Shown piece after piece: positions 3,579 to 61,723 of a DNA stretch of 64,000 nucleotides. The stretch spans positions 2,170,001 to 2,234,000 of the forward strand of contig OY725500.1 of NCBI GenBank assembly GCA_963281255.1. The letters run 5' to 3'. The number at the start of each line of letters is the position of its first letter. The stretch's first letter is position 1. This stretch comes from Aphrocallistes beatrix (taxonomy: Eukaryota > Porifera > Hexactinellida > Sceptrulophora > Aphrocallistidae). A program made the translations under genes and the position numbers. The notes below the pieces were generated by a model. That model was given only the letters and a program-made list of their open reading frames with translations. It was not told the origin of the DNA and did no database searches.

Positions 3579-4178
3579 GTGAGGCATATTATATAAATTA
3601 TTAAATGTTATTATTCTACTCGTATATATAAATATATATAAATGGACGTTTTCTTTACTAATTAATCCTTTCGAAATTATTTAAAAGAAATCTAAATAAT
3701 GCATTGAGGTAGTGTACCCTGATTGATAAATAATAATGCTAAGTTCTACGATGTAATACATTATTTGATTACTCGCCCAGATTTTCTTTTGATTTTCGCA
3801 GCGATTTCCTAACAATTGCACAATGTATTGAATAATTCATCACTTGTACTATTTTTGTTATCGTGATCCTTCAATGCAAAGCACTGATAATCTCACATTT
3901 TGGAATGAATTTACTGTGGTTTCTATACTTAGTAGAAATGATTGCTGATCTCTAACTCAATCATCTCCCCAAAACTATGATAATTACTACGGGCGTTCAA
4001 TAAGTAGTCGTTTTTGTTATTTATCTTGGTTGTTTCATTTGATTCAGAATTGGGTTAGCATATCTAATGTAACCCTACCGATGCTCTTTCAAATGATACT
4101 TTACTTTTTCACTTCTGAGCTTTGGTTTTTAAACTGTGGCTATTATTAGTTTGGCAGTTTTATATACTGGCATTTATT

Positions 4179-7177
4179 ATGGCTTCCGAGAGTGCAGATT
4201 TCAAAACTGAGCAGCGAGCCTTTGTAAAGATTCGTACACTGCTCCAAGTTTCTTCAACCGACATCCACAAGGATTTGATTGTGGTTTATAATGATAGAAC
4301 CCTTCCATATTCCACGATAGTTGACTGGACCCGACGTTTTCGTGAGGGAAGAGAGTCGATAGAAGATAAGCCCAGAGCAGGGAGGCCGATTTCCGGCGCC
4401 AGTGACAAATTTGTCCTCGAGGTTTCCGAATTACTGGAAGAAGACCCTCATATTTCATTGGTGGAGATAGCTAATGCAGTTGGGGTCTCAACGGGAACCG
4501 CTCATACCATTGTGCATGACAATTTGCAATTTATGAAAATCTGCGCTCGGTGGGTCCCGCATGCACTAACACAGGCCCAAAAAACTAAGAGGGTTCAATG
4601 TGCTCAAAAGTTGCTTTCTGACTTCGATAGAACCGACTCCTGGAGTCTATTCGAGATCGTGACTGGTGATGAGACTTGGGTGCGTTATAGCGAGCCTTTG
4701 TCAAAGGAAGCTAACAAAGTATGGGTAGCTAAAGGCCAGGACCCACCAATGATGCCTCGACATGACTTCCGGAACCCCAAGGTTATGTACTGTTTTTTTT
4801 TATTCTTATGGTCCAGTGTGCCAGATTTGTGTCCCCAAGAATACCACTATTACTGGATCATTTTACATGAATGAGTGCCTATCTGAGGTTGAGAAATTCT
4901 ACCACAATCGACGGCCAAGGACTGGGACTCGAGGACTGAGATTATTGCATGATAATGCCCGACCCCACTAGACCAAGCTGGTAATGGAAAAGTTGGAAAG
5001 TCTGAGAGTTGTAGAGCTAGATCCTCCTCCCTAATCACCAGACCTCGCTCCATGCGACTTTTGGCTCTTCCCTAAGCTGAAGAAACACCTGTCAGGGAGG
5101 GAATTCGAAAGTCGGCCTCACCTCGGATCGGCGATTTTTCAGTATATGAAAGGTATACCGCGTGAAGACTTCAAAAAAGTTTTTTGGATTGGATTAAGAG
5201 GTTAAGGATACCGCCCTCGAAAAAACATATGATTTGCATTACAGCATACGATGAAAGTAGAGCTATAAGAGATGTTAAGCGTGGGGAGGTATCTCCATCA
5301 AGAAATACTGGCACATTCCAAACCGTTTTTCATTCTCATTTCTAGATTTTGAGATACAGTGTCTCAAAGTCTGTTTTTTTAATTTTCCGCTAGCACATCT
5401 TAATGGTAGAAATTTAGGCACTCAATGAATTGTTTAGGACATACCAAAGAATCAAACGCTTCCAAAATCGAATCATAGATAGTCTACCATATTTGCAACT
5501 TCATAGGACCAGAAGAAAGTTAAAATGACAAATATTGTAAATTTTATCGGTGTCCGAAAAAAAAGGGCCAAAAAAGGGCGAAAAATGTCTGTTTTTTGGG
5601 GAAATCATGTATAAAATCACCGAGTTAGAATATATCCAAAAAATGGTGGTCCTACGTTCATCGCCTAATGATATGAAACAACTCTTGAAATTTTCAAACT
5701 TCTATCTCAAACGAAATTTGAGAAATAATTCTGTAAAGACGGTCAATTTTGAAATTTTAAAGTCCCGAGATATAGAGATTTTAAGTTTAGGTGTTAAGAA
5801 GAATGTAAAATGAGTTATTAATAATGCACATAAGCATCCACATACATTTATTCGCATCCATACTGCTGATTTAGGTATATGAAAGCCAAATATTTATCAA
5901 AAATAGCAAAAGTACCCTGAAAATCCACAAATTTCCTTAAGGCCCCTAAGTCCGAATATTTTGAGATAATTGTAGATAATATTTCATATTCCTGGCACTG
6001 CGAAGTATAATCTATCAGTTTAGAATGAATAAAAAGCTTCCAAAAAGTATATTAGGAAGTTAGAGCGAAAGTCTACGACTTTTAGTTTCGAAGTTAGGAT
6101 TTTCGAAAAATGCTACGTCATCATATGACAAAAATTTAAAAACTTAACATTCCATAGGGTGTAGTGCAATTATTATCAAAGAATCATATATGCACACTCA
6201 TAAAAAGTATATTAGGAAGTGAGAACTAAGAATTTGGACTTGTATTTATAAAGATAGAGAGATATCTCTTTTTGGACCCTAAATGGGGGTTTTTGACCGA
6301 ATCTCCGAGGTCCAAGGCCAGAACTTTCAAAATAATTATCAAAAGTTGTCCAATTTTTCTGTACATATTATTAAAGGCAATTGTATTCACTATTTAGCAT
6401 AATAGCTAAATTTGGACACATATTTAATGATTAGATTCGCCATTTTCTAATAGATTCAAAGTTCTCCATAGAATTTGTATTACAATTAAATCAATGATAA
6501 GTCGAGAATTATTTATTTTTTGACAAAGGAATGGTCGAGGAACCTATATATTTTGCATATATCCTTTTATTTAAGGATATAATATATTCTATATCTACAA
6601 TAGTTTTTAAGATATGACATCAGCCTCTTTCGGGACCTTAGAGGGATATTATGGCCGAACTTTACCTATAATATGCGATATCTCAAGAACAAATGGTCGG
6701 ATCTGGACAAATTTTTTTTTGAAACGATCAGAATTTTATTTCTGACCCAGTGATCGCTAAATATCTGAGATCAAACTTGCGATTTCCCGAGGATTATATA
6801 AATGAACTCCCTTATAGAGCTATTTTGTTTGGATATATTTGCCCAATCTTTTAAATCTTTGTGTTTTATAATCTCCAAAGGTGCTAAAACAATGTTAAGG
6901 TTCATATCATTAAAAAAATATCAAATAAGTTAAAAACTAATTGGTAAATGAGTTAAAATCCTGTAATAATTTTTCAATTTTTATTAACGCTAAACTTTAG
7001 GGGGTTATTTCGCAAAAAATAAAAGAAAATGCCGTCCAAATAGTGTTATCAGATGGTAGACCGATCAGTAATACAATGAAATTAGCAATAAAACATTTTG
7101 CTTTTTTTTTTTACGCCAGGCAAGATTTTTCGAGGGCGGTATCCTTAATACTAGTTATACAGCATCAAGGAGAGTAG
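4179..7177 (+). pseudogene. mariner transposase (D,D34D type), broken
   Basis: Starts MASESADFKTEQRAF. It contains the paired HTH region (SIEDKPRAGRPISG, then ISLVEIANAVGVSTGTAHTI), linker ARWVPHALT, first catalytic Asp in VTGDETW (about 4660), second in LHDNARPH (about 4955), and third in SPDLAPCDFWLFPKLK (about 5035). The gene is dead. A T-run frameshift lies near 4790, and stops follow the LHDNARPH motif and the motif before SPDLAPCD. A 1.9-kb TTAA insertion at 5206-7144 splits the last codons. Across that insertion the frame rejoins as WIKRL-ILVIQHQGE and stop, which fits the normal mariner C-terminus. Confidence 0.9.
5206..7144. mobile_element. Non-autonomous TTAA-type DNA element, copy 1
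   Basis: TTAA at 5202-5205 and 7145-7148 flanks inverted ends GGATACCGCCCTCGAAAAA. Excision restores the mariner reading frame. The 1.94-kb interior is AT-rich and has no transposase-like ORF; an 87-codon ORF at 5550-5813 is simple and unconvincing. TTAA targeting points to piggyBac or Kolobok machinery; the GG start cannot decide between them. A second copy is at 53221-55012. Confidence 0.85.
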
Positions 7178-7620
7178 TCGAGAAATTGCAGCATTGATAT
7201 TAATTATATTACTTGTTTTGGGGAAAGTATACTATGATAACGACTACTTATTGAATGCCCGTAGTATATAAATTAATGGATGTAAAGTATACAAGTTCGA
7301 ATTTATTGAATCCATATTCATTTTACTTGTTGAGTTATTATAATTAATAATGTCTTGATTTTCCCACCGTACAACGTGGGTTAAAATTATACAGAGAACA
7401 GCTGCATGTGACGCAACAATTTTTCACACATAATTTTTACAATGAATGTAGTTTTATTAATTAATCAGCACTAGTGAGAAATTACCCTGAGGTCGTTTAT
7501 TTCTTGTAGCGTCTACCTGTTAAAATGCAAGTTCTATTGTGAATAAGCAAATCAGTTCATTAATTTTACTTAGTCTTATTCTGCATTCACATTCAATTGA
7601 TTTCCAATATTAATTAACAG

Positions 7621-8807
7621 GAATTCAATGATATGCATGAACTCTTTATTCTTCTTAAGGACGATGTCATCCGAAAATTAAAAGGCGATTTATTTATTTC
7701 CTCATTGCAGACTCTCCACAACACGATGAAGAGACAGATGTGTCCAACGACAACCGTTCTATTCTCGGTTCTTAAAGATGTCACTCCTTTTGACATGGTT
7801 TGTTTCATTTAATAAATTAATTTTGATATTTGAATGTGGAATTTATTGATGTTCAATATATAATTTTCGGAATTAAAGAGATTGCTTCATAGAGAGTAGA
7901 AATTATGAACGCACTTCAACAATGGGCTCAAGTAGCATACGTTGGAAAATTCGAAAACTCCACTTTGCAAAGTCGACATTGCATCAACTACTCTCACAAG
8001 GTTTTATACCCAGTTGTAAGTTAATCATTCATACTTATTTATCAATGAAGGTGTTTGATTGTTTTCGATGAAAAATTTGTTTTATTTTAGATTTGTGAAT
8101 TGCTAGAAGTGGGATTGATTAGCAGGAAATTTTCGTCGATAACTGAACAGTTCCCCTTCAAGTTGCCACCTCTATCTAAAACCGGGCCATTCTATCAACC
8201 GGTTACAGAACAATGGCAAAAGATTAAATGTTTGCAAATTGGAGTTACCTTCAAAGAATATTTTGAGCAACAATCAACACTGACTGGTTCTCTTTTATCA
8301 AAATTTATTCCGTGGCAAACTAGCAGAATTGGGATGGAAGGTAACTGCTTTTTTAGATGCCTATCTAAAATTATATCAGGCATGGAAGAGCATCATGCAA
8401 AGCTTAGGGCTGAAACATGTAGATACATGGTGACGGATGGAAAACCTATCTTCAATCGTTATCTAAAAACATTTAATAAGGATTTGTCTCCGATTTCCTA
8501 TCTAAAAACATCAGCCATGACTGAAGACGGTATTTGGGCGACAGATGTCGAGGTAATGGCGAAAGCGTGCATGTTATATTCTGATGTCTTCATTGCTACG
8601 GAGCAGCATGATGCTAGAAAACTCCAGATGAGAGTCATTTGGAACAGATACTCAGGGCGTATCGAGTTTATTAGAGATCCTCAAAATATCTGTCTCTATA
8701 TTTCAAATCCTCATCAACATCATTATGAGCCAGTTATCCGACTAATAAACTCAGAATACGATAGTTTCAAACTCCAGGACACTAGCGAAAACCCTTATTT
8801 CTGTTAG
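7621..8807 (+). CDS. Ginger element C-terminal exons with OTU-like cysteine protease domain
   Basis: Three exons, all phase 0: 7621-7797 (after TTAACAG; weak donor GTTTGT), 7893-8015 (donor GTAAGT) and 8091-8807 (after TTATTTTAG, stop TAG). The last exon is an open 238 residues with an OTU fold signature. This comprises the nucleophile motif EGNCFFRCLSKI, EEHHAKLRAETCRYM downstream, IWATDVEVMAKA, and the histidine motif HHYEPVI near the C-terminus. OTU enzymes cleave ubiquitin-type isopeptide bonds. The usual Asp two residues before the Cys-Asn pair is Glu here (MEGNC), so activity is uncertain. This part is uninterrupted, unlike the integrase exons. It is probably the 3' half of the same transposon gene. 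Confidence 0.8.
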
Positions 8808-10834: not shown

Positions 10835-13059
10835 CAGTGGTTCCCAACCTGGGGTACGCGAGCCATTTTGTCAGGGATACGCGAACTACTTAATTGAGAT
10901 ATCTTAGATTATTGGTAACTTGTGGATTCAAGTTGACGAATCATAATTAAGTTGGCGCTAAAAACTTACTGTTATTCACTGTATCCTACTTACGTATGTA
11001 TCATTAGTGTTTTATATAAACATAATATTTCAGTCATAAATATAAATAGATAGTCTGTACTTTTCTCTACATTCTTATTCCGCAATATTGTGTACCCTTA
11101 TTCATAATGGAATCTGGAAAGAAGACGATTGTATTCCGACGAATATATCAAATATGGTTTTACTTCGATCAATATCAATAACATTGAGCGTCCACAATGC
11201 GTTATCTGTATTAAAACACTTTCTGCTGACAGCATGAAACCAAGCCTTTTGAGTAGGCATTTTGAAACATGTCATCCTGAACTTAAAGGCAGAGATCCCT
11301 CATATTTTTGAACGAAAAGAAAGTGGTGTAAAGAAAGCCCGATTAGATACCACTGGAACGTTTAATCAGCTTTCAGTTTCGGCAATTGAAGCGTCTTATG
11401 CTATTTCCTTGAAAATAGCTCAACAAAAGAAACCACATACAATTGGGGAAACTTTGATCCTTCCTTGCATCAAAGAAGCAGTTAAGTTCATGTTAGGTGA
11501 AGATGACGTTAAGAAATTAGCACCATTATCCATTTCCAATAACACTGTTCACCGTCGTATCGTAGATATGTCAGAAGATGTCAAGTTACAAGTATCTGAG
11601 ATGAAAACAGCACCATTGGGTTTATTCAGTATCCAGTTAGATGAGTTAACAGATGTAGCTTCATGTGCTCAGCTAATTTGCTTTGCCAGATATATCCATG
11701 ATAGGGAATTCAAAGAAGATTTTCTCTTTAGTCTGCCTTTACAAACAACAACAAGAGGAATTGATGTTTTTGAAAAAGTTAACGAATTCTTTATCGATAA
11801 CGGTTTGGTCTGGTAAAACCTATGTGGTGTCTGTACTGATGGGGCTCCTGCAATGTTAGGACGTCATTCAGGATTTCAAGCCCGAGTTAGAACTCAAGTT
11901 CCAGAAGTTTTGTCACTTCATTGCATGATACATAGACATGCTCTTGCTGTTAAAACACTCCCACTTTTGCTTTTGGATGTTATGTCTGGGGTTATAAAAT
12001 TGGTAAACTATATTAAGAGTAGTTCTTTGAATACACGTCTATTTCGAGAGTTATGTAAAGATCTAGATGCGAGTTCAGAAACCCTTCTATTTCACACAGA
12101 AGTGCGCTGGTTATCTAGAGGAATGTTGTTAAGCGAGTGTTTGAATTACGAGCCGAAATTCAAGAGTTTATTTTGCAAAAGAATAAACAAGACTTTATGT
12201 TGCATTTTAACATTGTCGAGCAGAGCCTAAAACTTGCCTACCTTGTTGATATTTTTTCTCAACTGAATAGACTAAATTTATTCATGCAAGGAATAGAAAA
12301 TACGATACTTGACATTGTGGATAAGGTCAATGCATTCATAATGAAACTAGAGCTGTGGAGTGGTCAAATTAGCAAAGGAAAATTGGACCAGTTTCATACT
12401 TTGAATGCACTCACTACGGAGAAGAAGACAGTTTTAGATGTTGAAACGAAAGAGGTAATTCTGGTGCACTTGAGAGCACTACAGAAATATTTTTTGTCAT
12501 ATTTTGAAGATGTGAATGACAGAGATTTCAAATTTGTCAGAAATCCTTTCAAAGTTGATTTTAATTCGATCCCAGAAGCCGAACAGGAAGAATTCATTGA
12601 ATTGATCAATGATAGCAATGCAAAAGAATTGTTCGCTGAAGTTCATCTGATTAGTTTCTGGTGCAAGATGGTCAATGCCTACCCCAAAGTATCTAAACTG
12701 GCTATTAGACTGCTACTCCCATTTCCTTCCACTTACTTGTGTGAATCCGGTTTTTCGACACTGTTTCACATAAAGACCAAACACAGGAATCGATTGTCTG
12801 TTCAAGACGACATGCGATGTGCAATTGCAAAGACTTCGCCTGACATTAAGATACTAGCTGCATTGAAGCAATCGCAACCGTCTCATTAACACACGTAATT
12901 TATTATACAGTACGTTATATATAAATCTACTCCTCAAAGCAATTCTTTCTAGTAAATAAACATTCATACAATAAACTCAACTATACTTTTTTACAGGGGT
13001 ACGCGGTAAATTTTCTATCTCGAAGGGGTACGTGAGTTAGGAAAGGTTGGGAATCACTG
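10835..13059 (+). mobile_element. hAT transposon, 2225 bp
   Basis: Ends CAGTGGTTCCCAACCTGGGG and ..GGTTGGGAATCACTG, with 8-bp duplications ATCTAGGG at 10827-10834 and 13060-13067. These are classic features of hAT elements of the Charlie/Buster kind. Almost full-length transposase inside. It is inserted in the transposase gene 10689-13596. Confidence 0.95.
11107..12889 (+). pseudogene. hAT transposase (ZBED5/SCAND3-like), lightly broken
   Basis: Starts MESGKK at 11107. It has a BED zinc finger (CVICIKTLSADSMKPS .. RHFETCH), the RNase H-like core with LFSIQLDELTDVASCAQL (first Asp), CTDGAPAMLG (second Asp), SLHCMIHRHALAVKTLP, and the hAT dimerisation end PFPSTYLCESGFSTLFHIKTKHRNRLSVQDDMR. The order and length (about 590 codons) match a full ZBED5-type transposase. 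Damage is small: frameshifts near 11140 and 11300, a TAA at 11814 after NGLVW, and a frameshift near 12150-12230. This suggests a fairly recent loss of function. Confidence 0.92.
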
Positions 13060-15524: not shown

Positions 15525-15549
15525 AATATATATCTATATATCTATATAT

Positions 15550-16044
15550 CTGTAACGAATTGATTGAAGAAACTGCCATGCGCAAAAAGCTGTTTTTTGG
15601 CATGCTGGAGTCTTTTGGCTATGGCTCTACTAAGTTCTGAGCTCAGACGAAAATGTCGACTCATTATGGAATTATGACGTCATTGTCACCTTTTTTATAA
15701 TTATAAATTTCAGTTTTTCGACCATAACTCAGCCTTTTTAAGTGATGGAAGTCTGAAATTTTAATAGAATGTGTATATTAATATATCTCATATATGTTAC
15801 AACTATAATAAAAAAATGAAGACTCAGCACTCTGTTAATGACGTCATCATTACGCATCAAAATTTTTAAAATTGACAAATTTGGTGATTTTCCATGTGAT
15901 ATTGATTATAACATTAGGACAGACGTATTTCGAGATGTTATCTCCCTTATAATTAATCAATGTGACCCCAGGCGCCCAAAGGGCGCCTCCGGTGGACACA
16001 AAGTGTCCGCCAGCCGCTCAGCGCAAGCAAGCGAAGCGCGCTTG
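15550..16044 (+). repeat. Family-A unit 3
   Basis: Third tandem unit, full length. It includes one of the recurrent short ORFs (15838-16047, MTSSLRIKIFKIDKFGDFPC..). Confidence 0.9.
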
Positions 16045-26007: not shown

Positions 26008-26483
26008 CAAGCGCGCTTCGCGGCTGGCGAACACTTCGCGTCCGCCGGAGGCTCCCTTCGGTCGCCTGGAATCACATTGGTTAATTATAAGGGAGATACA
26101 TCTCTAAATATGTCTATTCTACTGTGCTAATCGATATCACTCGAAAAATCACCAAATTTGTGAATTTAAAAATTTTTGATGCGTAATGATGACGTCATAA
26201 CAAAGTGATGAGTCATCATTTTTTTATGATAGTCGCATCATATGTGAGACATGTTAGTATACAGATTCTATTAAAATTTCAGCCTTCTATCTCCTATAAT
26301 GGCTGAGTTATGCCCGAATAACTGTGTTGCTTAACTTTTAAAAATGTGACAATGACGTCATAATTCCATGATGAGTCGACATTTTGCTCTGAGCTCAGAA
26401 CTTACTGGAGCCATAGCCAAAATACTCCCACATGCCAAAAATTAGCTTTCTATGACCGACAGTTTTTTCAATCAATCCGTTAC

Positions 26484-26485
<2 letters not shown>
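26008..26485 (-). repeat. Family-A unit, inverted, second of tandem pair
   Basis: CAAGCGCGCTTCGCGGCTGG to CAATCCGTTACAG. Both TGACGTCA palindromes intact. Confidence 0.9.
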
Positions 26486-26546
<61 letters not shown>

Positions 26547-26593
26547 AATATATATATACACATACACAATAATCGAGTTTTAATAGTAAGGAT
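26486..26593. repeat. (TA)n microsatellite and family-A end
   Basis: About 80 bp of TA repeats, then CAATAATCGAGTTTTAATAG and TAAGGAT: the outer end belonging to the inverted pair. 26600-26955 shows no recognisable feature. Confidence 0.85.
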
Positions 26594-26961
26594 ATATATA
26601 TATATATAATGTATGTATATTATATAACGAAGAAACTGTTTTTTATATGATTAAATGGAAACAAACCTCAACGATGGTAAGTACTATGAGTCATTATTTG
26701 TGTAACATTCCCAAGAAATCAGTTGATTTCTGATATTTGTGAAGTAGCAAGAAATTCAGATTTTCCATATGAAATGGCTTGAAATGTGGTGTTATGTCAG
26801 AAGACACAAAATGTTTTGAGGCGTATAATTCATGAAACAAGGACTCTTGTCTCAAAATCCGCAAAAAAACATCTTGATAGGGTAGTTTATCATATATACT
26901 TAATTTGACTTTGTATTAATTCAGGGATTATCCTTTTACTCGAACTTATTGAACACTCGGT

Positions 26962-34693: not shown

Positions 34694-36667
34694 CAGTAGA
34701 GACTAGCAAACCGGGCACCTCGGGGGAGTCGCCGAGGCGCCCCGATTTGGGAGAGTGCCCCGGTTTGCGAGTGGGAAAGAAATTAATAGTAGAACTGTTC
34801 CCAGAGTACAATCTGTACTAAAATAGTGATCACCTAAAGTGTTACATCATTTACTAGAAATCATTTCTAGAAATCAGTACAAAAAATCGGAATTGTTAAT
34901 GATCTAGTAATGATTATCCATAAAGAAGTCGCTGATCTTTGTCTGGTACCTTTCCTGGTCCCTGCGGCTCTGAACGATGCCCTGATACCAGGCCAAATCG
35001 AAGGTGCCAGCCAAAACATATTCATCTCCCCTTCCCAGTGCATACATCTGCAAGGTTTGCAGGGCTTCTAAAGCATCCTTTGAGGAAGGGATAACGCACT
35101 CGGGTTCAGGATCAGCTTTCTGCTCTTTTGATATTCCATCTTGGGCCCCTTGAAATCCATCTACGACCTGATCGAACAAGTCTTCAGACTCCACAGGAGG
35201 AGGAAACAGGTTCTTCTCGTCCATTTCAGCGACTATCAGCTCAGAATAGTCATCAGCAGCCCCCGGAAGCGTATTATCATCTGTTGGTGCATCTCCCGAA
35301 AACTGAAACCCAAACCTCGCAAAGCACTTGGAAATGGTCCTCGGGTTAAGGTCACGCCAAGCCCGAAACACCCACACAATCACCAGTGCGATGTTCACAG
35401 ACTTATAAGGATCCTCAGTAGCAGTGGTCTCATCGGTCATTCGATTCAGAATGTGATTGTGCAGCTGCTTACGGTAATTCATCTTGAATGCATGTATGAC
35501 TCCAGCATCTAGTGGCTGTAAGCAACTCGTGGTGTTCTTAGGAAAGAACACAATTTTGGTGGTGCTTAAGCACAAATCGTGAATGTTGTGCACTCCAGCG
35601 TTATCCATAAATAACAACACACGTCTTTTGGAATTCTTCATGCGACTATCAAAATCGTTGATCCAAGAGGTGAAAATATTCCCTGTCATCCAAGATTTTT
35701 TCTGAGCTCTGTAAATAACTGGTAATTTAGACTTGTCAGTCCCCTTTAGAGCTCGAGGATTCTCACTCGCTCCAATCAGCAAGATCTTTTCTTTCTCTCC
35801 AAGCCAGGACGCGCACAAGAGCAACGAAAACCTGGACTTGTCTCGCTTATCACCATGACCGTGATTGCCGTGAATGACAAGTGACTTGGTGGTGGCCTGT
35901 TTGAAGAATAGGGCACCACCTTAGTCTCATCACAGTTGAAGATGTCTGCCATGTAATATCCAGCGATAATCTCAGTCAATTCTTTCTGCTAATTCTTGAC
36001 CATAACCTTATCCACTGTACCAGCTTCTCCAGAGAGGTTCCTTCTTGAGATACCGTGCCTAGCCTTTCCCAACCAGCCTCAGAGGCAGTGAATCCATCAA
36101 TAGCCCTTTTATGGGCCTCCCTCTCAGCCAGACTTTTCAGCATGGGACCAATCACGGACATTTCCCGTTCCCTAGCGGCGGCAAGGAATCTTACAACCGC
36201 ACCCTCGATCAGCTCATACTGAGGGTTGATGATACAGTTCTTACGCTTCTTCAAGTAGGCTGAGATATTCTCCTCATCATCCTTCAGATCCTCTAGGTTA
36301 TTTCGGGATCGCTTGATGCGATTGATAGTCCCCTTTCCGATTGAGAACTTGGTAGCTACGTCTCGTTCAGATAATCCACCATCAAGCAGCTTCAAAGCCT
36401 TAATTTTTTGCTCGATAGTGAGACGAGAGTTCGTTCCTAACATCAACGCTAACAAAACTTAACAAATAATCGGTGACTCGAAACATTACACTTCTACACT
36501 TGTGAAAATTTCTGCTAACATTAGAGTTTACATGAAAAGACTAAGACAATATATGCGCCCTGGTTTGCGAGTGTGGTTTGTATGCGGGAAAATCAAATTC
36601 TGACCATTGTGCCCCGGATTGGGAGATGCCCCGGTTTGCGGGTGCCCCCGTTTGCGAGTGTCTACTG
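34694..36667 (-). mobile_element. Tigger/pogo-type transposon, 1974 bp
   Basis: Ends CAGTAGAGACTAGCAAACCG and ..TTTGCGAGTGTCTACTG, TA at 34692-34693 and 36668-36669. Subterminal GC-rich repeats GCCCCGGTTTGCGAGTG occur several times at both ends. Contains a nearly complete CENP-B/jerky-like transposase. Confidence 0.94.
34904..36455 (-). pseudogene. Tigger/jerky-like transposase, two frameshifts
   Basis: Begins MLALMLGTNSRLTIEQKIKA at 36455. It has a CENP-B-type N-terminal HTH (GLSERDVATKFSIGKGTINR) and the second DNA-binding helix region to 35976. The DDE core starts after a frameshift: IFNCDETKVVPYS (first Asp, about 35940). After another frameshift near 35825 a long open part (306 codons) carries RVLLFMDNAGVHN (second Asp, about 35590) and FFPKNTTSCLQPLDAGVI (third Asp, about 35505). 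It ends RYQTKISDFFMDNHY. Only two or three small lesions separate it from an intact gene. Confidence 0.92.
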
Positions 36668-38960: not shown

Positions 38961-39737
38961 ATCCTTACTATTAAAACTCGATTAATGTGTATGTGTGTGT
39001 ATACAGTGGAGTTCGCTTATTAGCAATATTGCTCTATTAGCAACCAATCTTCAGGTCCCAGGTGTAGATTTTGTATCAATTATGTTCCCTTATTAGCAAC
39101 TTCGCTTATTAGCAACCAGTTTATGAGCAAAACTCGAGTTGCTAATAAGCGAATTCCACTGTATATATATATATATATATATAATTATATATCTCTGCAA
39201 CGAAATGATTGAAGAAACTGCGGGGCACAAAAAGCTGATTTTTGGCATGTGGGAGTCTTTTGGGTATGGCTCCACTAAGTTCTGAGCTCAGAGCAAAATG
39301 TCGACTCATCATGGAATTATGACGTCATTGTCACATTTTTAAAAGTTAAGCAACAGAGTTATGGGAGGATAACTCAGCCATCGTAGGAGATAGAAGGCTG
39401 AAATTTTAATAAAATATGTATACTAACATGCTTCACACATGATACAACTATCATCAAAAATGATAACTCATCACTTTTTTATGACGTCATCATTACTCAT
39501 CAAAAATTTTAAAATTGACAAATTTGGTGATTTTTCGAGTGATATCTATTATCACAGTAGGACAGACATATTTAGAGATGCTATCTCCCTTATAATTAAC
39601 CAATGTGACCCCAGGCGACCGAAGGGAGCCTCTGGCGGACACAAAGTGTCCGCTAGTTGTGTTCGCCAGCCGCGCAGCGCAAGCAAGCGAAGCGCGCTTG
39701 TATATATAAACATTAATTGAGAATTAATAGTAAGGAT
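38961..39737 (+). repeat. Family-A complete copy (left end, unit, right end)
   Basis: Left end at 38961, a pogo MITE inserted in the TA run, unit 39197-39700 and right end CATTAATTGAGAATTAATAG to 39737. It is the clearest L-unit-R example. It includes the recurrent ORF 39439-39720. Confidence 0.92.
39004..39161. mobile_element. pogo-type MITE, 158 bp
   Basis: Ends CAGTGGAGTTCGCTTATTAG and ..CTAATAAGCGAATTCCACTG, TA on both sides. The interior repeats TTATTAGCAA. Inserted in a family-A element. Confidence 0.92.
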
Positions 39738-49312: not shown

Positions 49313-50657
49313 CAGGGTGTCTCAAAAGTTTTTTCCGGTTGTACTAATACCCATAACTAGTAAACTATGGTATAGAAATCTTATATTATTTGCAAATATA
49401 ATCTCCTCTAAGTTGGATACAAGAATTAATTCGAGCAGGCATTCCTGAGATTAAATTCTCCAAAATCGACGGCGTGAGTCCATTCCAGATATTTTTCAGG
49501 TAATTAGCGAGCTCTGACAAGTTGGTGGCTGGTGTCTTCTTGTCAAGCTCGGCTTGAATAATCACCCAAAGATTTTCAATGGGATTTAAATCTGGTGAAT
49601 TGCTAGGCCAAATTCCTTTTGCCCAGTAGCCTGGAATATGATTGGAAAGCCAGGTTTGCGTCTTTTTGGCGGTATGGGCAGGAGCCCCATCCTGCATAAA
49701 AATGGCCTCGGACATCAAGCGACACATTTTCCGTTCTGTCACTGGGCCTGTAGTTTTCCTTCTCTTCAAGGTAGGAAGGCAGGACTTCTCCAAAATTCCT
49801 TTTATATAGTATTCTGCATCTACAGATTGTTTGGGAGGAAGAAAATGGAGTTCCGAGAGCCCAGTGCCACTCATCATCCCCCAGACCATGATTTTAGGCG
49901 GGAATTTAACTGTTTGAACAGGTTCAATATTTCGCGCATTCTGACTCCAAACCCGATCGTTCTGCCTATTTGTTGGATGGAAAAGTTCAAAAGAACTCTC
50001 ATCACTAAAAAGAACCCTTTTCCAATCCTGTCCATCCCAAAATTTATGACTAAGGCAGAATTGTAGCCTCTGTTCCTTCTGTTTTCCGACAATTTTGGTT
50101 GCGAAGGTCTTTTGTATGGCTTTGCTCCGATGGTATTCCTTAAATAACGATGTATAGTGTCTTTACTAACTCTCTGTGAATTTTTCGAAACGATACAAGC
50201 AAGTTTTCGCGTAGACTACAAACGTTTGCCTAGAGATTTTCTAATAATGATTTTAGGAACGCGAGAAAGCCGTGTTGGACGCCCAGACCGAGGTTTGTCC
50301 GCCATGGATTTTCCTGATAGAATCTTCGTTTTCCAATTCCAAACAGTCTTAACTGTAACCCCTAAGGTCTGAGCAATCTGTTTCTGGCTAATACCAGATT
50401 CTAACATACCGATTGCACGTAATCTCTTATCAATTCTGGAATTTTGGACATCCATAATATAAACTATATATTGATGATGAAGTGAGGTCAAAAAAATCAC
50501 AAGATGTTAACAAATACAATTGATTTGTATTTCATTCAAACATTATGACCGTTCAAGTTAAATATTATCAAAAAAGGGCGAGTTTAAATGCAAGCACAGA
50601 TGTAAAAGGAATATTTTGATTAATTACAAAACCGGAAAAAACTTTTGAGACACCCTG
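49313..50657 (-). mobile_element. Tc1-type transposon, 1345 bp, nearly complete
   Basis: Ends CAGGGTGTCTCAAAAGTTTT and ..AACTTTTGAGACACCCTG, TA at 49311-49312 and 50658-50659. Full-length transposase with few lesions. Confidence 0.95.
49386..50455 (-). pseudogene. Tc1 transposase (DD34E), few frameshifts
   Basis: Starts MDVQNSRIDKRLRAIGMLES near 50455, with HTH KQIAQTLGVTVKTVWNWKTK and the GRPTRLSR linker. The first Asp is near 50005 (LFSDESSF, frame-shifted). An open C-terminal part of 167 codons carries VWGMMSGTGLSELHFLPPKQ, FMQDGAPAHTAKKTQTWL (second Asp, about 49690) and WPSNSPDLNPIENLWVIIQA (Glu, about 49575). Length and order match Tc1 transposases. Two or three frame breaks are seen. 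Confidence 0.92.
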
Positions 50658-57145: not shown

Positions 57146-57291
57146 TTTGCTTATTCTACTAAGTATAAACTCTGGGATTATTTCTCAAGCTAGACGCTCT
57201 TCAGCTCCCAGGTGTATGAACAATTATAACAACGAAGAGCAAGTCCCAGTGTTCAGGGTAACACTTAAGCCTGATGAACCTAGACACGCAT

Positions 57292-57820
57292 GCACGTCCA
57301 CTTAAAATCTTAAAAAATCACGAAAAAATTACGTTAAGCTTATCTCAGTATTTACAAACATTTTGGTATTTTTCAGCTCCAGCGGATCAAAGTAAGACCT
57401 TGAAAAATTTAATATTTCATTTTCACATATAAATGTGGTGTATATTGTGTTAAAATCCACTTCATCTGTTATAACTTCCATTCTCCATTAATAAAAGTTC
57501 TGAAAATTAGGTACAAATTCTAAATTACTAATACTTGGATCGAACACACCTAAAGTTATAATCTAGCCAACTAATTCTCGAATTATTACGTCATCATGAC
57601 AGTACAAAATTTCATAGCAATGACTCAATTCATTACAGCTCAGGCAATATTCATCATAAATCAATGAAACTTAAACACTAGATCTATCTTACCCTTTTCT
57701 GCCAGATTGTCTCAAAATCTCGTCAAAATGCAAATTCATCATTGATTATGACGTCATAATTGTGTATAAAAAGTGGAAATTTTACCAATTCAATTTTTAC
57801 AATTTTTATCATTTTCGAGT
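57292..57820 (+). repeat. Left ~529-bp terminal inverted repeat
   Basis: Pairs with 60695-61204. Matching landmarks include CAGCTCCAGCGGATCAAAGT, GTTATAACTTCCATTCTCCA and GCCAGATTGTCTCAAAATCT. Contains TGACGTCA (about 57747). Confidence 0.88.
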
Positions 57821-57829
57821 AAAACTCAT

Positions 57830-58049
57830 TAATTAATATACACATATTGATTTCTTATTGTAATTCTAATAAAAATGGAAATATTTTGAAATTTCGAAAA
57901 AGTAAAAGGTGACAATGACGTCACAACTCCATGATGAGTCGATATTTTCTTAGTCTGAAGTTAGAACTTAGTGGAGCCATAGCCAAAAGACTCCCACATG
58001 CCAAAAATCAGCTTTCTGCGCTTGTCAGTTTCTTCAATCAATTCGTTAC

Positions 58050-58104
<55 letters not shown>

Positions 58105-58150
58105 AATAAATAAATAAATATATATTAATCGATTTTTAATAGTAAGGATA
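57830..58150 (-). repeat. Family-A 5' half, inverted, with (GATA)n and end
   Basis: GACAATGACGTCACAACTCC, TAGTGGAGCCATAGCCAAAA, TTTCTTCAATCAATTCGTTA, then (GATA)n at 58051-58104 and the end ATTAATCGATTTTTAATAGT..AAGGAT at 58150. The usual (TA)n is replaced by (GATA)n. Confidence 0.82.
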
Positions 58151-58168
58151 TCCTTCAGTTTATTCATT

Positions 58169-60322
58169 ATGATAATAAATTCATCTATACCCCCTGCTTC
58201 CTCTGTGATACCTTTCGTATGTCCCCACTTTAATGAGTACTGCTACTGTTGTGGAGTCTCATGGTCCAAAGTGGTGCTGTACCCTATCACAAATTGTATG
58301 GCATTAAAGATGGATAAAGAATTCCAGGAATATGCAGGGCCAACTGGTTCGCACTCAGATCTCACTGGTCCCTCTTCCATATGCGGTAATTGCAAGATCA
58401 CTCTCACCGTTAATACAAATGCTCAGCTGGACAGTTGGAAAAAGCAATTCGCCAAGAGAAGAATAGAACACTACTGTATAGTGCGGAGGTGGCCAAAGCC
58501 AGATCACACAGAAGAAAAATGCTGGTATTGTGACAACCACAAGCTCAAGATGAGGAAGGGGAAGAAGAAAAACAGAAAGGGTGCAGGGAGACCCCCAGGA
58601 TTTTCTTTCATCACTCCGTTTCGACCAGCGAAGACTCGTCAGGAGTTAACACAGGGCCTAATAGCTCAGGCTGAGGATGCTGGACAAATCGATCAATTGG
58701 TTCGAGCTGGGCTGAGTGCCATTCGTAAGTCGCGAGGTCTCCCCAAGGATGCACCCTTTGAACTATTAGGTCATCATGGCAGGGCAACTACCTTCCAACG
58801 AGCAAACCCCAGCCAGAAGCGGACAAAGCTTGTAGTTCCTACTTCCTTCATTCGACAGCTCCAGCTTGTGACCACGACCTCTAATTCCTCCATGGACTGT
58901 CTTATGACTATCATGAATCGGTTCATCGGTTCTGCAGTTCGTCTCCCAAAAAGACTAACAATTGTGTCGGAACGAGCTGAGTATATGACCCACTTTGCCA
59001 TAAAGAACTTTGGAGAAGCTGATGATCTGTTACATGAAGCGACTGACACATTGGCAAAGTTTTGGATGGCTGAGACTGGCGAAGTACACAGGCAGAGTCG
59101 AAATTCTACATATGGAATTGTTCGGGATATATGTGGGGAATTAGTCAGTCAAGAGTACAAGTCTGGAGACTGTCTGAAAATGTCAATTGATGGCGGCGGC
59201 GGATCTGTAAAAGTGATAATCAATCACCAAGGAGAAGCCATTAGTTTCAAAGGCAAAGGAGAGAGACAGATTCCATTCGTCATCGCTATTTCAGAGGCTA
59301 GTGAGAGTCGAGCTCTACTATCATGCATGATGTATGACCTGTCCCCTATGTTTGACGATTATAATGTAACAGTGGCATGTGACTTCAAGTGCGCCCAATT
59401 GCTAACTGGCTGCACCACGACTGCTTGTGTGTTCTGCTGTACAACTGGCAAGAGGGTAAACAAGAGCCAAATCTACTCTCCGGACAACAGAAACGTTCCA
59501 AGGACTGCAGATCAAGCAGCCTTATTACCCAAAACCAAGCCGGCCAGAGCAAGACACATTGATGGACAGATACATCACCCTATTCTGGACCTCGGAAATG
59601 ACCCTGTAGAGATATTCCATATACCTGTTTTACACATATCTATGTGCATATTGCGGCAATTGTTTCAACGCGAGACTCGACTTGGCTCGACCTGCAAGGA
59701 TGTATGGGAATCAAGAAAGCTCAAACTTCTGGTATTCCTGGAGACCAACTATCAAGTGAAAGCTTTGACCGCAACCTGCACCAGCACACTCAAAGCCGAG
59801 CACATGAAGTGTCCCTCATTCGCTGGCAAGGACGTTACTAGGCTCGCCTCAGCAGTTTCAAGTGCTAGTGGTGCTGTATCTCTATGGATTGACTCTGGCT
59901 TCTCGGATTGCTCCGTTTTTGTCCTCAGAGCATGGCACTCACTTCGAACTGCTGCATGGGCTGGAGAAGAGATTGGAGAAGTTGCAAGACTCCTTTACGA
60001 ATTCAGGATAGTGTGGCTTGATAATGGACTGACAGTAACGCTTCTTATCCATTGCTTGCTCGCTCACTTCATGGATTGGTATTCTATACACCGAGGAAAG
60101 GTACAGCTCCTTACAGAGGAGCAAATTGAGTCATGTCACAATGACTTCTCTGCGGTACAGACCACTCATCATAGTACTGCAGTAGATGCACTAGGTCGAT
60201 ACAACTTCACCAGGAAGGATGGCCATAAGAGAAAGGCTGATGCACCAGCTAGACCCATTAGAGAGTCAGCCAAACGGGCAATTCGTTTCTGGAAGGAGAT
60301 CGATGGTACAGACGAAGACTAG
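58169..60322 (+). CDS. 717-residue putative transposase-like protein, intact
   Basis: Largest ORF of the window, uninterrupted. The N-terminus has Cys-rich pairs (CPHFNEYCYCCG, SSICGNC, KCWYCDNHK) likely to bind zinc, then a basic stretch KMRKGKKKNRKGAGRPPGF (AT-hook-like GRPP) at residues ~129-147. The middle holds LKMSIDGGGGSVKVIINHQG, then YNVTVACDFKCAQLLTGCTT and ACVFCCTTGKRV. The C-terminal third has DPVEIFHIPVLHISM and a basic tail. The DGGGG..., CDFK.. and downstream acidic residues look like a possible RNase H/DDE core. I have a memory of similar DGGGG/DLK..GL..H..PC..C proteins in invertebrate genomes but know no function. The start could also be Met-44 (58298). AATAAA follows at 60472. 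Confidence 0.6.
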   Translation: MIINSSIPPASSVIPFVCPHFNEYCYCCGVSWSKVVLYPITNCMALKMDKEFQEYAGPTGSHSDLTGPSSICGNCKITLTVNTNAQLDSWKKQFAKRRIEHYCIVRRWPKPDHTEEKCWYCDNHKLKMRKGKKKNRKGAGRPPGFSFITPFRPAKTRQELTQGLIAQAEDAGQIDQLVRAGLSAIRKSRGLPKDAPFELLGHHGRATTFQRANPSQKRTKLVVPTSFIRQLQLVTTTSNSSMDCLMTIMNRFIGSAVRLPKRLTIVSERAEYMTHFAIKNFGEADDLLHEATDTLAKFWMAETGEVHRQSRNSTYGIVRDICGELVSQEYKSGDCLKMSIDGGGGSVKVIINHQGEAISFKGKGERQIPFVIAISEASESRALLSCMMYDLSPMFDDYNVTVACDFKCAQLLTGCTTTACVFCCTTGKRVNKSQIYSPDNRNVPRTADQAALLPKTKPARARHIDGQIHHPILDLGNDPVEIFHIPVLHISMCILRQLFQRETRLGSTCKDVWESRKLKLLVFLETNYQVKALTATCTSTLKAEHMKCPSFAGKDVTRLASAVSSASGAVSLWIDSGFSDCSVFVLRAWHSLRTAAWAGEEIGEVARLLYEFRIVWLDNGLTVTLLIHCLLAHFMDWYSIHRGKVQLLTEEQIESCHNDFSAVQTTHHSTAVDALGRYNFTRKDGHKRKADAPARPIRESAKRAIRFWKEIDGTDED

Positions 60323-60471
60323 CGAGATAAACAAATATTGGTGTAATCATAGCGGAAGGTTTCGGTTGAAATAGTGTAGTAGAATTCTATGTACTAATAT
60401 TCTCATTATATTCATATTATCAATATAAACATTTTCTCAATAGATTGATATTTTCACTAAACAGATATTCT

Positions 60472-60477
60472 AATAAA
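60472..60477 (+). promoter_or_regulatory. Candidate polyadenylation signal
   Basis: AATAAA about 150 bp after the 717-codon ORF and before the right terminal repeat. Confidence 0.5.
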
Positions 60478-60694
60478 TAATATTTCAGTCTGGTGAATGT
60501 CGTAGCACAAATCAATTCCAACTCAATTGAGGGCAATGTCGTTTGCTCATACAATCTCAAAGTATGTCATTATAGACAATGACGGGTAGTGTATAGGAGC
60601 GCGCATCGTTTTCTAGATCGCTAAAGATCGGTATAGCGCATACCCAAAACAACTTTGCAGTAGCCGTGTACTTGCCATCGACACTTTTTGCCTC

Positions 60695-61204
60695 GGAAAA
60701 ATGATAAAAATTGTAAAAATTGAATTGGTAAAATTTCCACTTTTTATACACAATTAAGACGTCATAATCTAATGATGAATTTGCATTTTGACGAGATTTT
60801 GAGACAATCTGGCAGAAAAGGGTAAGATAGATCTAGTGTTTAAGTTTCATTGATTTATAATTAATATTGCCTGAGCTATAATGAAATTTTGTACTGTCAT
60901 GATGACGTAATAATTCGAGAATTAGTTGGCTAGATCATAACTTTAGGTGTGTTCGATACAAGTATTATTAATTTAGAATTTGTAGCTAATTTTCAGAACT
61001 TTTATTAATGGAGAATGGAAGTTATAACAGATGAAGTGGATTTTAACACAATATACACCACATTTATATGTGAAAATGAAATATTAAATTTTTCAAGGTC
61101 TTACTTTGATCCGCTGGAGCTGAAAAACACCAAAATGTTTGTAAATACTGAGATCAGCTTAACGTAATTTTTTCGTGATTTTTTACGATTTAAAGTGGAC
61201 GTGC
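60695..61204 (-). repeat. Right ~510-bp terminal inverted repeat
   Basis: Partner of 57292-57820. A few small indels (for example extra T in CACTTTAAATC). Its palindrome is decayed to AGACGTCA. Confidence 0.88.
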
Positions 61205-61208
61205 GCAT

Positions 61209-61723
61209 GGGTTCGATCGCTCCACAGAGTTGGCCTATAACTCAAAAGCAGGTTACATTTGATCCAAGTAGTTCAATGATGGAGACATTGAATATACACA
61301 CAAAATATCAAATGGTGACGATGGTACCCATCGTGAAATACCGCAAAAGTGCTTAAAGCTAAAACAAGGTGACGTACCATATATTCTACCAGGGTACCCA
61401 TCTTAATATTCATCACAATCAGGAACTAAACGCTCTCGTCTATCTCTAGAAGAAAAGATGATGAACTCCTCTCTCAAGTAAGAGTCTCAGCCAAATATCA
61501 AATACTGAGGAGAGTCAAGTTTCTGATCAACATTTTCCAAGAACTGCAAGATAAGTTTCACATCTTTCTATTTATGAAACATGGTCATACAGGTATTCGA
61601 ATTCAAGTACATTAGTATTTATTCGAACTAAGCAAGATACTAGCAATGTTTCCAGGGCTATTTACATATCAGTATTCTTTGATTTGTCTGTAAAAGCAAA
61701 TCACAAAGGTAAAACTTTTTCAA
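61209..61723. other. No recognisable feature
   Basis: No credible ORF. It opens with GGGTTCGATC, resembling a Pol III box B, but I find no partner box A. Confidence 0.45.

Follow-up and report, generated by a model that had tools for sequence, protein, structure and literature searches.

When analyzing a 64,000-nucleotide stretch of the genome of the hexactinellid sponge Aphrocallistes beatrix (positions 2170001-2234000 of contig C14 in a 100.5-Mb, 28-contig assembly; hereafter the window), we found a recently mobile 3,911-bp DNA transposon at positions 57293-61203. A first-pass annotation, made from the letters of the sequence, had proposed an autonomous DNA transposon with inverted arms of about 520 bp around an intact open reading frame (ORF) of 717 codons, and both structures held up. 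The arms (57292-57815 and 60698-61204) are about 94% identical over 525 nucleotides (nt) with one 18-bp indel, and the frame is open throughout. The better reading of the boundaries starts the element at CACGTCC. The features of this copy, in window coordinates, are as follows.

57287-57292, no strand: left copy of the target site duplication (TSD), CGCATG, 6 bp
57293-57815, plus strand: left terminal inverted repeat, tip CACGTCCACTT
57904-58151, plus strand: captured repeat resembling a short interspersed element, with a GATA tail, between the left arm and the ORF
58169-60322, plus strand: transposase ORF, 717 amino acids, single open frame
58241-58531, plus strand: N-terminal region with three CxxC pairs (C25/C28, C72/C75, C118/C121)
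58586-58594, plus strand: GRP (residues 140-142) within the basic segment AGRPP
59189-59191, plus strand: codon of D341 in SIDGGGG, proposed as the first catalytic acid
59381-59383, plus strand: codon of D405 in ACDFK, proposed as the second catalytic acid
59426-59437, plus strand: C420-x2-C423, proposed zinc-binding C(2)C
59633-59635, plus strand: H489 of the LH motif, proposed counterpart of RAG1 H795
60050-60067, plus strand: H628-x4-H633, proposed zinc-binding H(4)H
60128-60130, plus strand: codon of E654, proposed third catalytic acid (LTEEQIESCH)
60698-61203, minus strand: right terminal inverted repeat, matching the left arm in inverted orientation
61204-61209, no strand: right copy of the TSD, CGCATG, 6 bp
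57180-57292, plus strand: left flank, belonging to the interrupted target (THAP-like relic, resuming at 61210)

The element has no second long ORF besides the 717-codon frame. The repeat with the GATA tail is abundant, with 16 further matches in the window (e.g., 15527-15694, 26341-26595, and 39162-39339). Because the distance between arm and ORF is similar (337 to 361 nt) in six other copies of the transposon, this repeat was probably already present in the master copy before the spread and travelled with it.

A six-frame search of the genome with the 717-residue protein gave at least 23 matches. The family of the window copy (family 1) has at least seven near-identical copies, on contigs C14, C10, C20, C1 (two), C11, and C2, in addition to damaged ones. 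Since six more near-identical copies occur at other places, a chance pairing of arms and ORF is ruled out. Between any two of the seven ORFs there are 1 to 4 substitutions, in addition to indels; three copies keep all 717 residues, three have a 1-nt indel, and copy L026 has a 710-residue frame after a 21-nt deletion. With so few substitutions between seven copies, the family moved recently, in line with the recent activity or selection that the first-pass annotation had suggested from the open frame. The left and right arms within a copy differ by about 6%, and five other whole left arms are 98.7 to 99.6% identical to that of the window copy; the family-1 copies therefore descend from one recent master. 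The left arm as a DNA query gave 21 matches in the genome, all at ORF-bearing copies or their remains except for a 47-nt scrap at C11:2366735. No population of elements with arms alone, which the first-pass annotation had named as contrary to its proposal, turned up in this search. Searches of the protein database gave one near-identical protein of 710 residues (P0001), and a query with the alignment added seven further partial ones. P0001 does not have the seven residues DVTRLAS, and the L026 frame is likewise 710 residues long. Both arms of L026 (C1:4244-4250 kb), at 1281-2498 and 5351-7218, are interrupted by about 0.7 kb and 1.3 kb of other sequence, which suggests nested insertions.

Two related families were found in the same genome. 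The family-2 protein is 28% identical to that of family 1, and family-2 elements have arms of about 310 bp with tips CACGGGGGTC/CACGAGGGTC; two of them, L032 and L033, are both 4,215 bp long. A genome search with the protein core only gave further matches at E values of 0.002 to 0.3, several of them in long open frames, and loci L066 to L069 were read. L068 (761 residues) and L067 match a profile of families 1 and 2 (with protein P0002 and the decayed relative L034) with a score of 127.8 (E value, 1e-15) over 362 co-linear columns. L068 represents family 3, with arms of about 345 bp that are 90% identical and CAC(A/G)GGTG tips. Since L066, L068, and L069 look near-identical by eye, this group may also have been recently active; the related long-ORF transposases among these further matches span 602 to 761 residues. 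All three families have CAC...GTG tips.

The 4-bp direct repeat GCAT that had been noted outside both tips is there, as part of the 6-bp CGCATG. Copies with the same long arms exist as well, and their duplication is 6 bp rather than the constant 4 bp that had been expected. In ORF orientation, the family-1 sites with both flanks read CGCATG (window copy), CGGTCA (L024), CATTCG (L028), and CAGTCG (L029), and the family-2 sites read CGGTCA (L032) and CGATCA (L033). At the remaining two-sided site, L027, only 5 bp (CAAGC) are duplicated, and the right flank continues with G. A perfect 6-bp duplication is thus present at six of the seven two-sided sites of families 1 and 2; the count leaves out L030, where the tips were not reached, L034 and L037, whose ends were not found, the fragment L035, and L068 (family 3). 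At the six perfect sites, G or A precedes the left tip and the corresponding base on the other side of the element covaries with it, while the first two bases past the right tip are CG or CA (TG in L026, of which one flank was read). Because the tip-adjacent bases vary between copies together with their partners, all six bases belong to the target and not to the element, and a 4-bp TSD of GCAT is ruled out.

The sites also share a sequence preference. One-sided flanks read CGCCTG (L031), TGTTCG (L026), CGACCG (L036), and CTGGCC (L025). Ten of the 11 sites, with L027 scored by its right flank, have the form CG-NN-(CG/TG/CA) on one strand, a pattern noticed post hoc; 0.86% of the window consists of such 6-mers. 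L025, which has an altered tip on its other side, does not fit. CpG decays to TG and CA, so the underlying target would be CGNNCG, which is near-palindromic.

Uninterrupted relatives of the target, a check proposed with the first annotation, were found for the window copy and for L033. L033 lies in a repeat, a nearby copy of which reads GACCA-CAATAA-TCTCACTG where the occupied one reads GACCA-CGATCA-element-CGATCA-TCTCACTG. The flanks of the window copy, joined through one CGCATG, give the open stretch PDEPRHAWVRSLHRVG. These joined flanks align without gaps as DNA with a THAP relic in L036 until 5 bp beyond the junction, and the joined peptide matches that relic over 33 residues (30-62) across the junction with a protein score of 107; the L036 ORF is THAP by Pfam (PF05485; E value, 3.8e-12). 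The window element is therefore inserted into a THAP-like relic. Such comparisons alone do not separate 6 bp from 4 bp; the variation between copies does.

The protein had been taken for a DDE-type recombinase with its first acid in SIDGGGG and its second in ACDFK, and the comparison of families makes this probable. Families 1 and 2 have in common the blocks SIDGGGG, E(S/T)R, D(F/T)K, C(V)(F/Y)C, LLHI/VLHI, LIH(x4)H, and LTEExIExxH, the last seen in family 2 only in L036 and L037 (L032 and L033 stop earlier). Equivalents of D341 and D405 are kept in family 2, L068, and L067. The invariance of the two Asp residues is not complete, as L034 has N in the second position. C(2)C, LH, and H(4)H are all present in the window protein, family 2, and L068. 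The three CxxC pairs have the same number and order in family 2, and L068 and L067 have a fourth pair. Counterparts of the GRP segment are PGRPL in L068, PGRPT in L067, and GQP in family 2.

In RAG1L, the active site consists of D, E, D, H, and E, and two Cys and two His share one zinc (PMC7204232). From the alignment of motifs, we propose D341, E379, D405, H489, and E654 as counterparts of the D-E-D-H-E residues, with E379 presumably corresponding to RAG1 E662, and C420/C423 and H628/H633 as counterparts of the zinc ligands ZnC2 and ZnH2. The order of these residues in Transib and RAG1 is matched at the motif level only. The spacings D1-D2/D2-C/C-LH/LH-HH/HH-E are 64/15/66/139/21 in the window protein, 62/15/60/141/21 in family 2 (last value from L036), 70/19/54/120/25 in L068, and 106/15/67/141/23 in L062, a Transib-like element of the same genome. 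For RAG1 they are 108/19/65/142/20, counted on mouse residue numbers, which fit the letters of the sequence. Four of the five spacings are close to those of RAG1 and Transib, and D1-D2 is shorter. A strict version of the ordered motif pattern was reached by 1 and a loose version by 17 of 100,000 shuffles of the window protein, the pattern having been drawn post hoc.

We compared profiles with hhalign, setting a joint profile (window protein, P0002, family 2, L034, L068, and L067) against one of L062 relatives, HzTransib pieces, and RAG1. The score was 31.3 (P = 0.0077) over 232 columns from the second D to E, with the motifs in register. None of 30 and none of 164 column shuffles reached it (maximum, 21.1), and four other transposase fragments of the window, used as a control, scored 12.4 to 18.5. 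Without L068 and L067 the score was 29.1 (P = 0.013; 0 of 61 column shuffles, maximum 19.4), and the joint profile against L062 alone scored 23.8 (0 of 70 shuffles, maximum 22.0). Going by the motif order, the spacing, the CAC...GTG tips, and this moderate profile match, the element probably belongs with the CMC/Transib/RAG1 transposases. Homology to Transib/RAG1 is probable, not proven. The first-pass annotation had named no superfamily; no library names the protein, and a placement at clade level can now be offered as probable.

Several results weigh against this placement. L068 and L067 alone did not match Transib/RAG1 (score, 15.7). Smaller hhalign runs gave P values of 0.16 to 0.23, no better than four unrelated transposase fragments (0.08 to 0.52), and one of 20 single-sequence shuffles in these runs scored 29.6, so outliers are possible. 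Pairwise Smith-Waterman scores against Transib/RAG1 were at the shuffle level; this test was uninformative, because a mariner fragment had its top Z score (3.0) and family 2 scored 2.2 with Tc1. The 717-residue protein has no sequence match in Pfam, NCBIfam, or the PDB, and its ORF is not among the 19 weak genome matches of the RAG1 Pfam model (PF12940). Two AlphaFold models were unusable (predicted local distance difference test scores [pLDDT] of 31.6 and 34.7), and with the second of them none of 72 Foldseek matches was below 0.001. Family 3 showed no duplication at the flanks of L068, the one copy examined, and the 6-bp TSD itself lies beyond the published range of the clade. From the low-pLDDT models we noted only the order of strands and helices, which is compatible with RNase H. 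A PHROGs search gave nothing useful, and viral contigs searched with the single protein gave no match.

With these points weighed, we consider it quite likely that the element is an autonomous cut-and-paste transposon and that it encodes a single transposase, a DDE enzyme of the CMC/Transib (RAG1) kind. Its 6-bp stagger exceeds the 2 to 5 bp published for the clade. We read it as a lineage of its own within that clade, nearest in signature to Chapaev.

The strongest competing explanation, to which we give somewhat less than an even chance, is that the element belongs to a branch, so far unlisted, of Chapaev or some other CMC group, e.g., the clade around the fungal CNEST, that its TSD length has drifted, and that it is perhaps already in Repbase. 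Its termini and its C(2)C, LH, H(4)H signature are as published for Chapaev, which has CAC...GTG ends (PMC4079192), and the three CxxC pairs ahead of the core recall the zinc-type Chapa domain named for Chapaev (PMC4411706). CNEST of Cryptococcus belongs to a CMC lineage near Chapaev and Mirage that includes unclassified transposases from diverse animals, and it has a CMC-type DDE core and CACGG tips (PMC12810828), like the CACGG/CACGA of family 2. However, the TSD is generally 3 to 4 bp in Chapaev (TWA in Chapaev3), and CNEST has a 2-bp TA TSD with 33-bp terminal inverted repeats in about 7.2 kb; here, as far as descriptions can be compared, the TSD is 6 bp at CGNNCG targets in two families only 28% identical, and family-1 tips are CACGT. 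No 6-bp Chapaev, Transib, or CMC element appeared among the matches listed by the literature searches, and the 6-bp TSD in PMC12810828 belongs to a Gypsy element. The resemblance of the N-terminal region to the RAG1 N terminus is also weak in hhalign, its score being equaled by shuffles in 2 of 105, 2 of 103, and 4 of 81 cases.

A DDE transposon from some unrelated superfamily (Dada, IS3EU, hAT6, or KDZ), with RAG1-like motifs by coincidence, is an unlikely explanation. TSDs of 6 bp have been described for IS3EU and hAT6 (PMC12730594), and of 6 to 7 bp for Dada (PMC3706591); the Transib profile evidence is moderate, and the pairwise scores are at noise. Yet the spacings of RAG1/Transib are closely matched at four of the five intervals, and none of 164 shuffles equals the joint profile. 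Dada was reported to have no terminal inverted repeats, to contain introns in most cases, and to have a DxxH motif and small-RNA-gene targets, and IS3EU of rust fungi ends in TAYGG..CCRTA. Dada had been suspected from GGTTCGATC in the right flank and was ruled out by the long arms, the THAP-like target, and the absence of an ARAGORN tRNA gene from the window. A domesticated host gene merely sitting between inverted repeats, as an open frame among fragmentary neighbors could suggest, can practically be dismissed, given seven near-identical copies at different sites, several with 6-bp duplications of their own, and an arm that, the 47-nt scrap aside, is found only with ORF-bearing copies or remains.

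For a transposon of the CMC/Transib kind, the mechanism can be sketched as follows. The N-terminal CxxC/GRP region, which may correspond to the zinc region and GGRPR segment of RAG1, would at a guess bind the arms. Two metal ions would be coordinated within an RNase H fold by D341, D405, and E654 with the assistance of E379 and H489, and C420/C423 with H628/H633 would hold one zinc. The enzyme would cut at the CAC tips and join the 3' ends to the two strands of the target at points 6 bp apart in near-palindromic CGNNCG sites, so that the whole would be the RAG/Transib reaction plus one base pair of stagger. More tentatively, and with the odds rather against it, the families could form a distinct superfamily of the RAG1/Chapaev clade, with three or more deeply divergent families in this genome, recent mobility in at least one, a 6-bp stagger at CGNNCG, long CAC...GTG arms, and a CxxC and GRP N terminus.

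RAG1, the antibody-gene recombinase, came from the CMC/Transib transposase clade. A young relative with intact copies and a different stagger and tips makes the basis of the 5-bp RAG/Transib spacing testable, as well as the evolution of the zinc/GRP front end, and the published TSD range of the clade would widen. If the superfamily is distinct, the strand-transfer spacing of a RAG-type transpososome can exceed 5 bp, and a zinc/GRP front end like that of RAG1 occurs in the absence of RAG2.

The window contains other transposon remains. The longest other stop-to-stop frame is 338 residues, in line with the earlier remark that the other transposases are broken. Fragments with transposon or retroelement domains lie at 34904-35920, 35976-36458, 49386-50162, 4119-4874, 12119-12889, 309-746, and 8091-8807. 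They include pogo/Tigger-like DDE_1, Tc1-like DDE_3, hAT dimerization, and retroelement RNase H domains and, below the cutoff, CENP-B-like helix-turn-helix and mariner-like HTH_48 matches, plus a weak OTU-like match.

The genome also offers an internal control, since L062 has tips CACAGTGGTTTA and a 5-bp duplication, GAAAA. L062 forms with L064/L065 (C15:2751300-2756700) a separate Transib-like family with an open 726-residue frame and tips CACAGTGGTTTAGA/CACAGTGGTTTAAA that show the heptamer of the RAG recombination signal sequence, CACAGTG. Five of the loci with weak PF12940 matches (L059 to L063) were read and are of this kind. Transib and RAG1 have tips resembling the signal-sequence heptamer, and those described here (CACGTCC, CACGGGG/CACGAGG, and CAC(A/G)GGTG) have only CAC in common with it; D1-D2 is 59 to 70 residues here and 106 to 108 there. 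D, D, C(2)C, LH, H(4)H, and E follow one another as in Transib, RAG1, and ProtoRAG (PMC7204232 and PMC11844651; PDB 6pqn, 6b40, and 4wwx), with most of the distances alike and CAC likewise at the tips; the TSD in those systems is 5 bp instead of 6 bp. A CpG-containing, near-palindromic target is likewise in common with RAG, a strand-transfer complex of which used CGCCG. The CMCT clade is described as having C(2)C and H(3-4)H between the second D and E, mostly CA..TG ends, and a TSD of 2 to 5 bp (PMC12730594). The element thus has the motifs and ends of both Chapaev and CMCT and a TSD longer than that of either; for this last reason we do not file it as a member of them, and it works like them.

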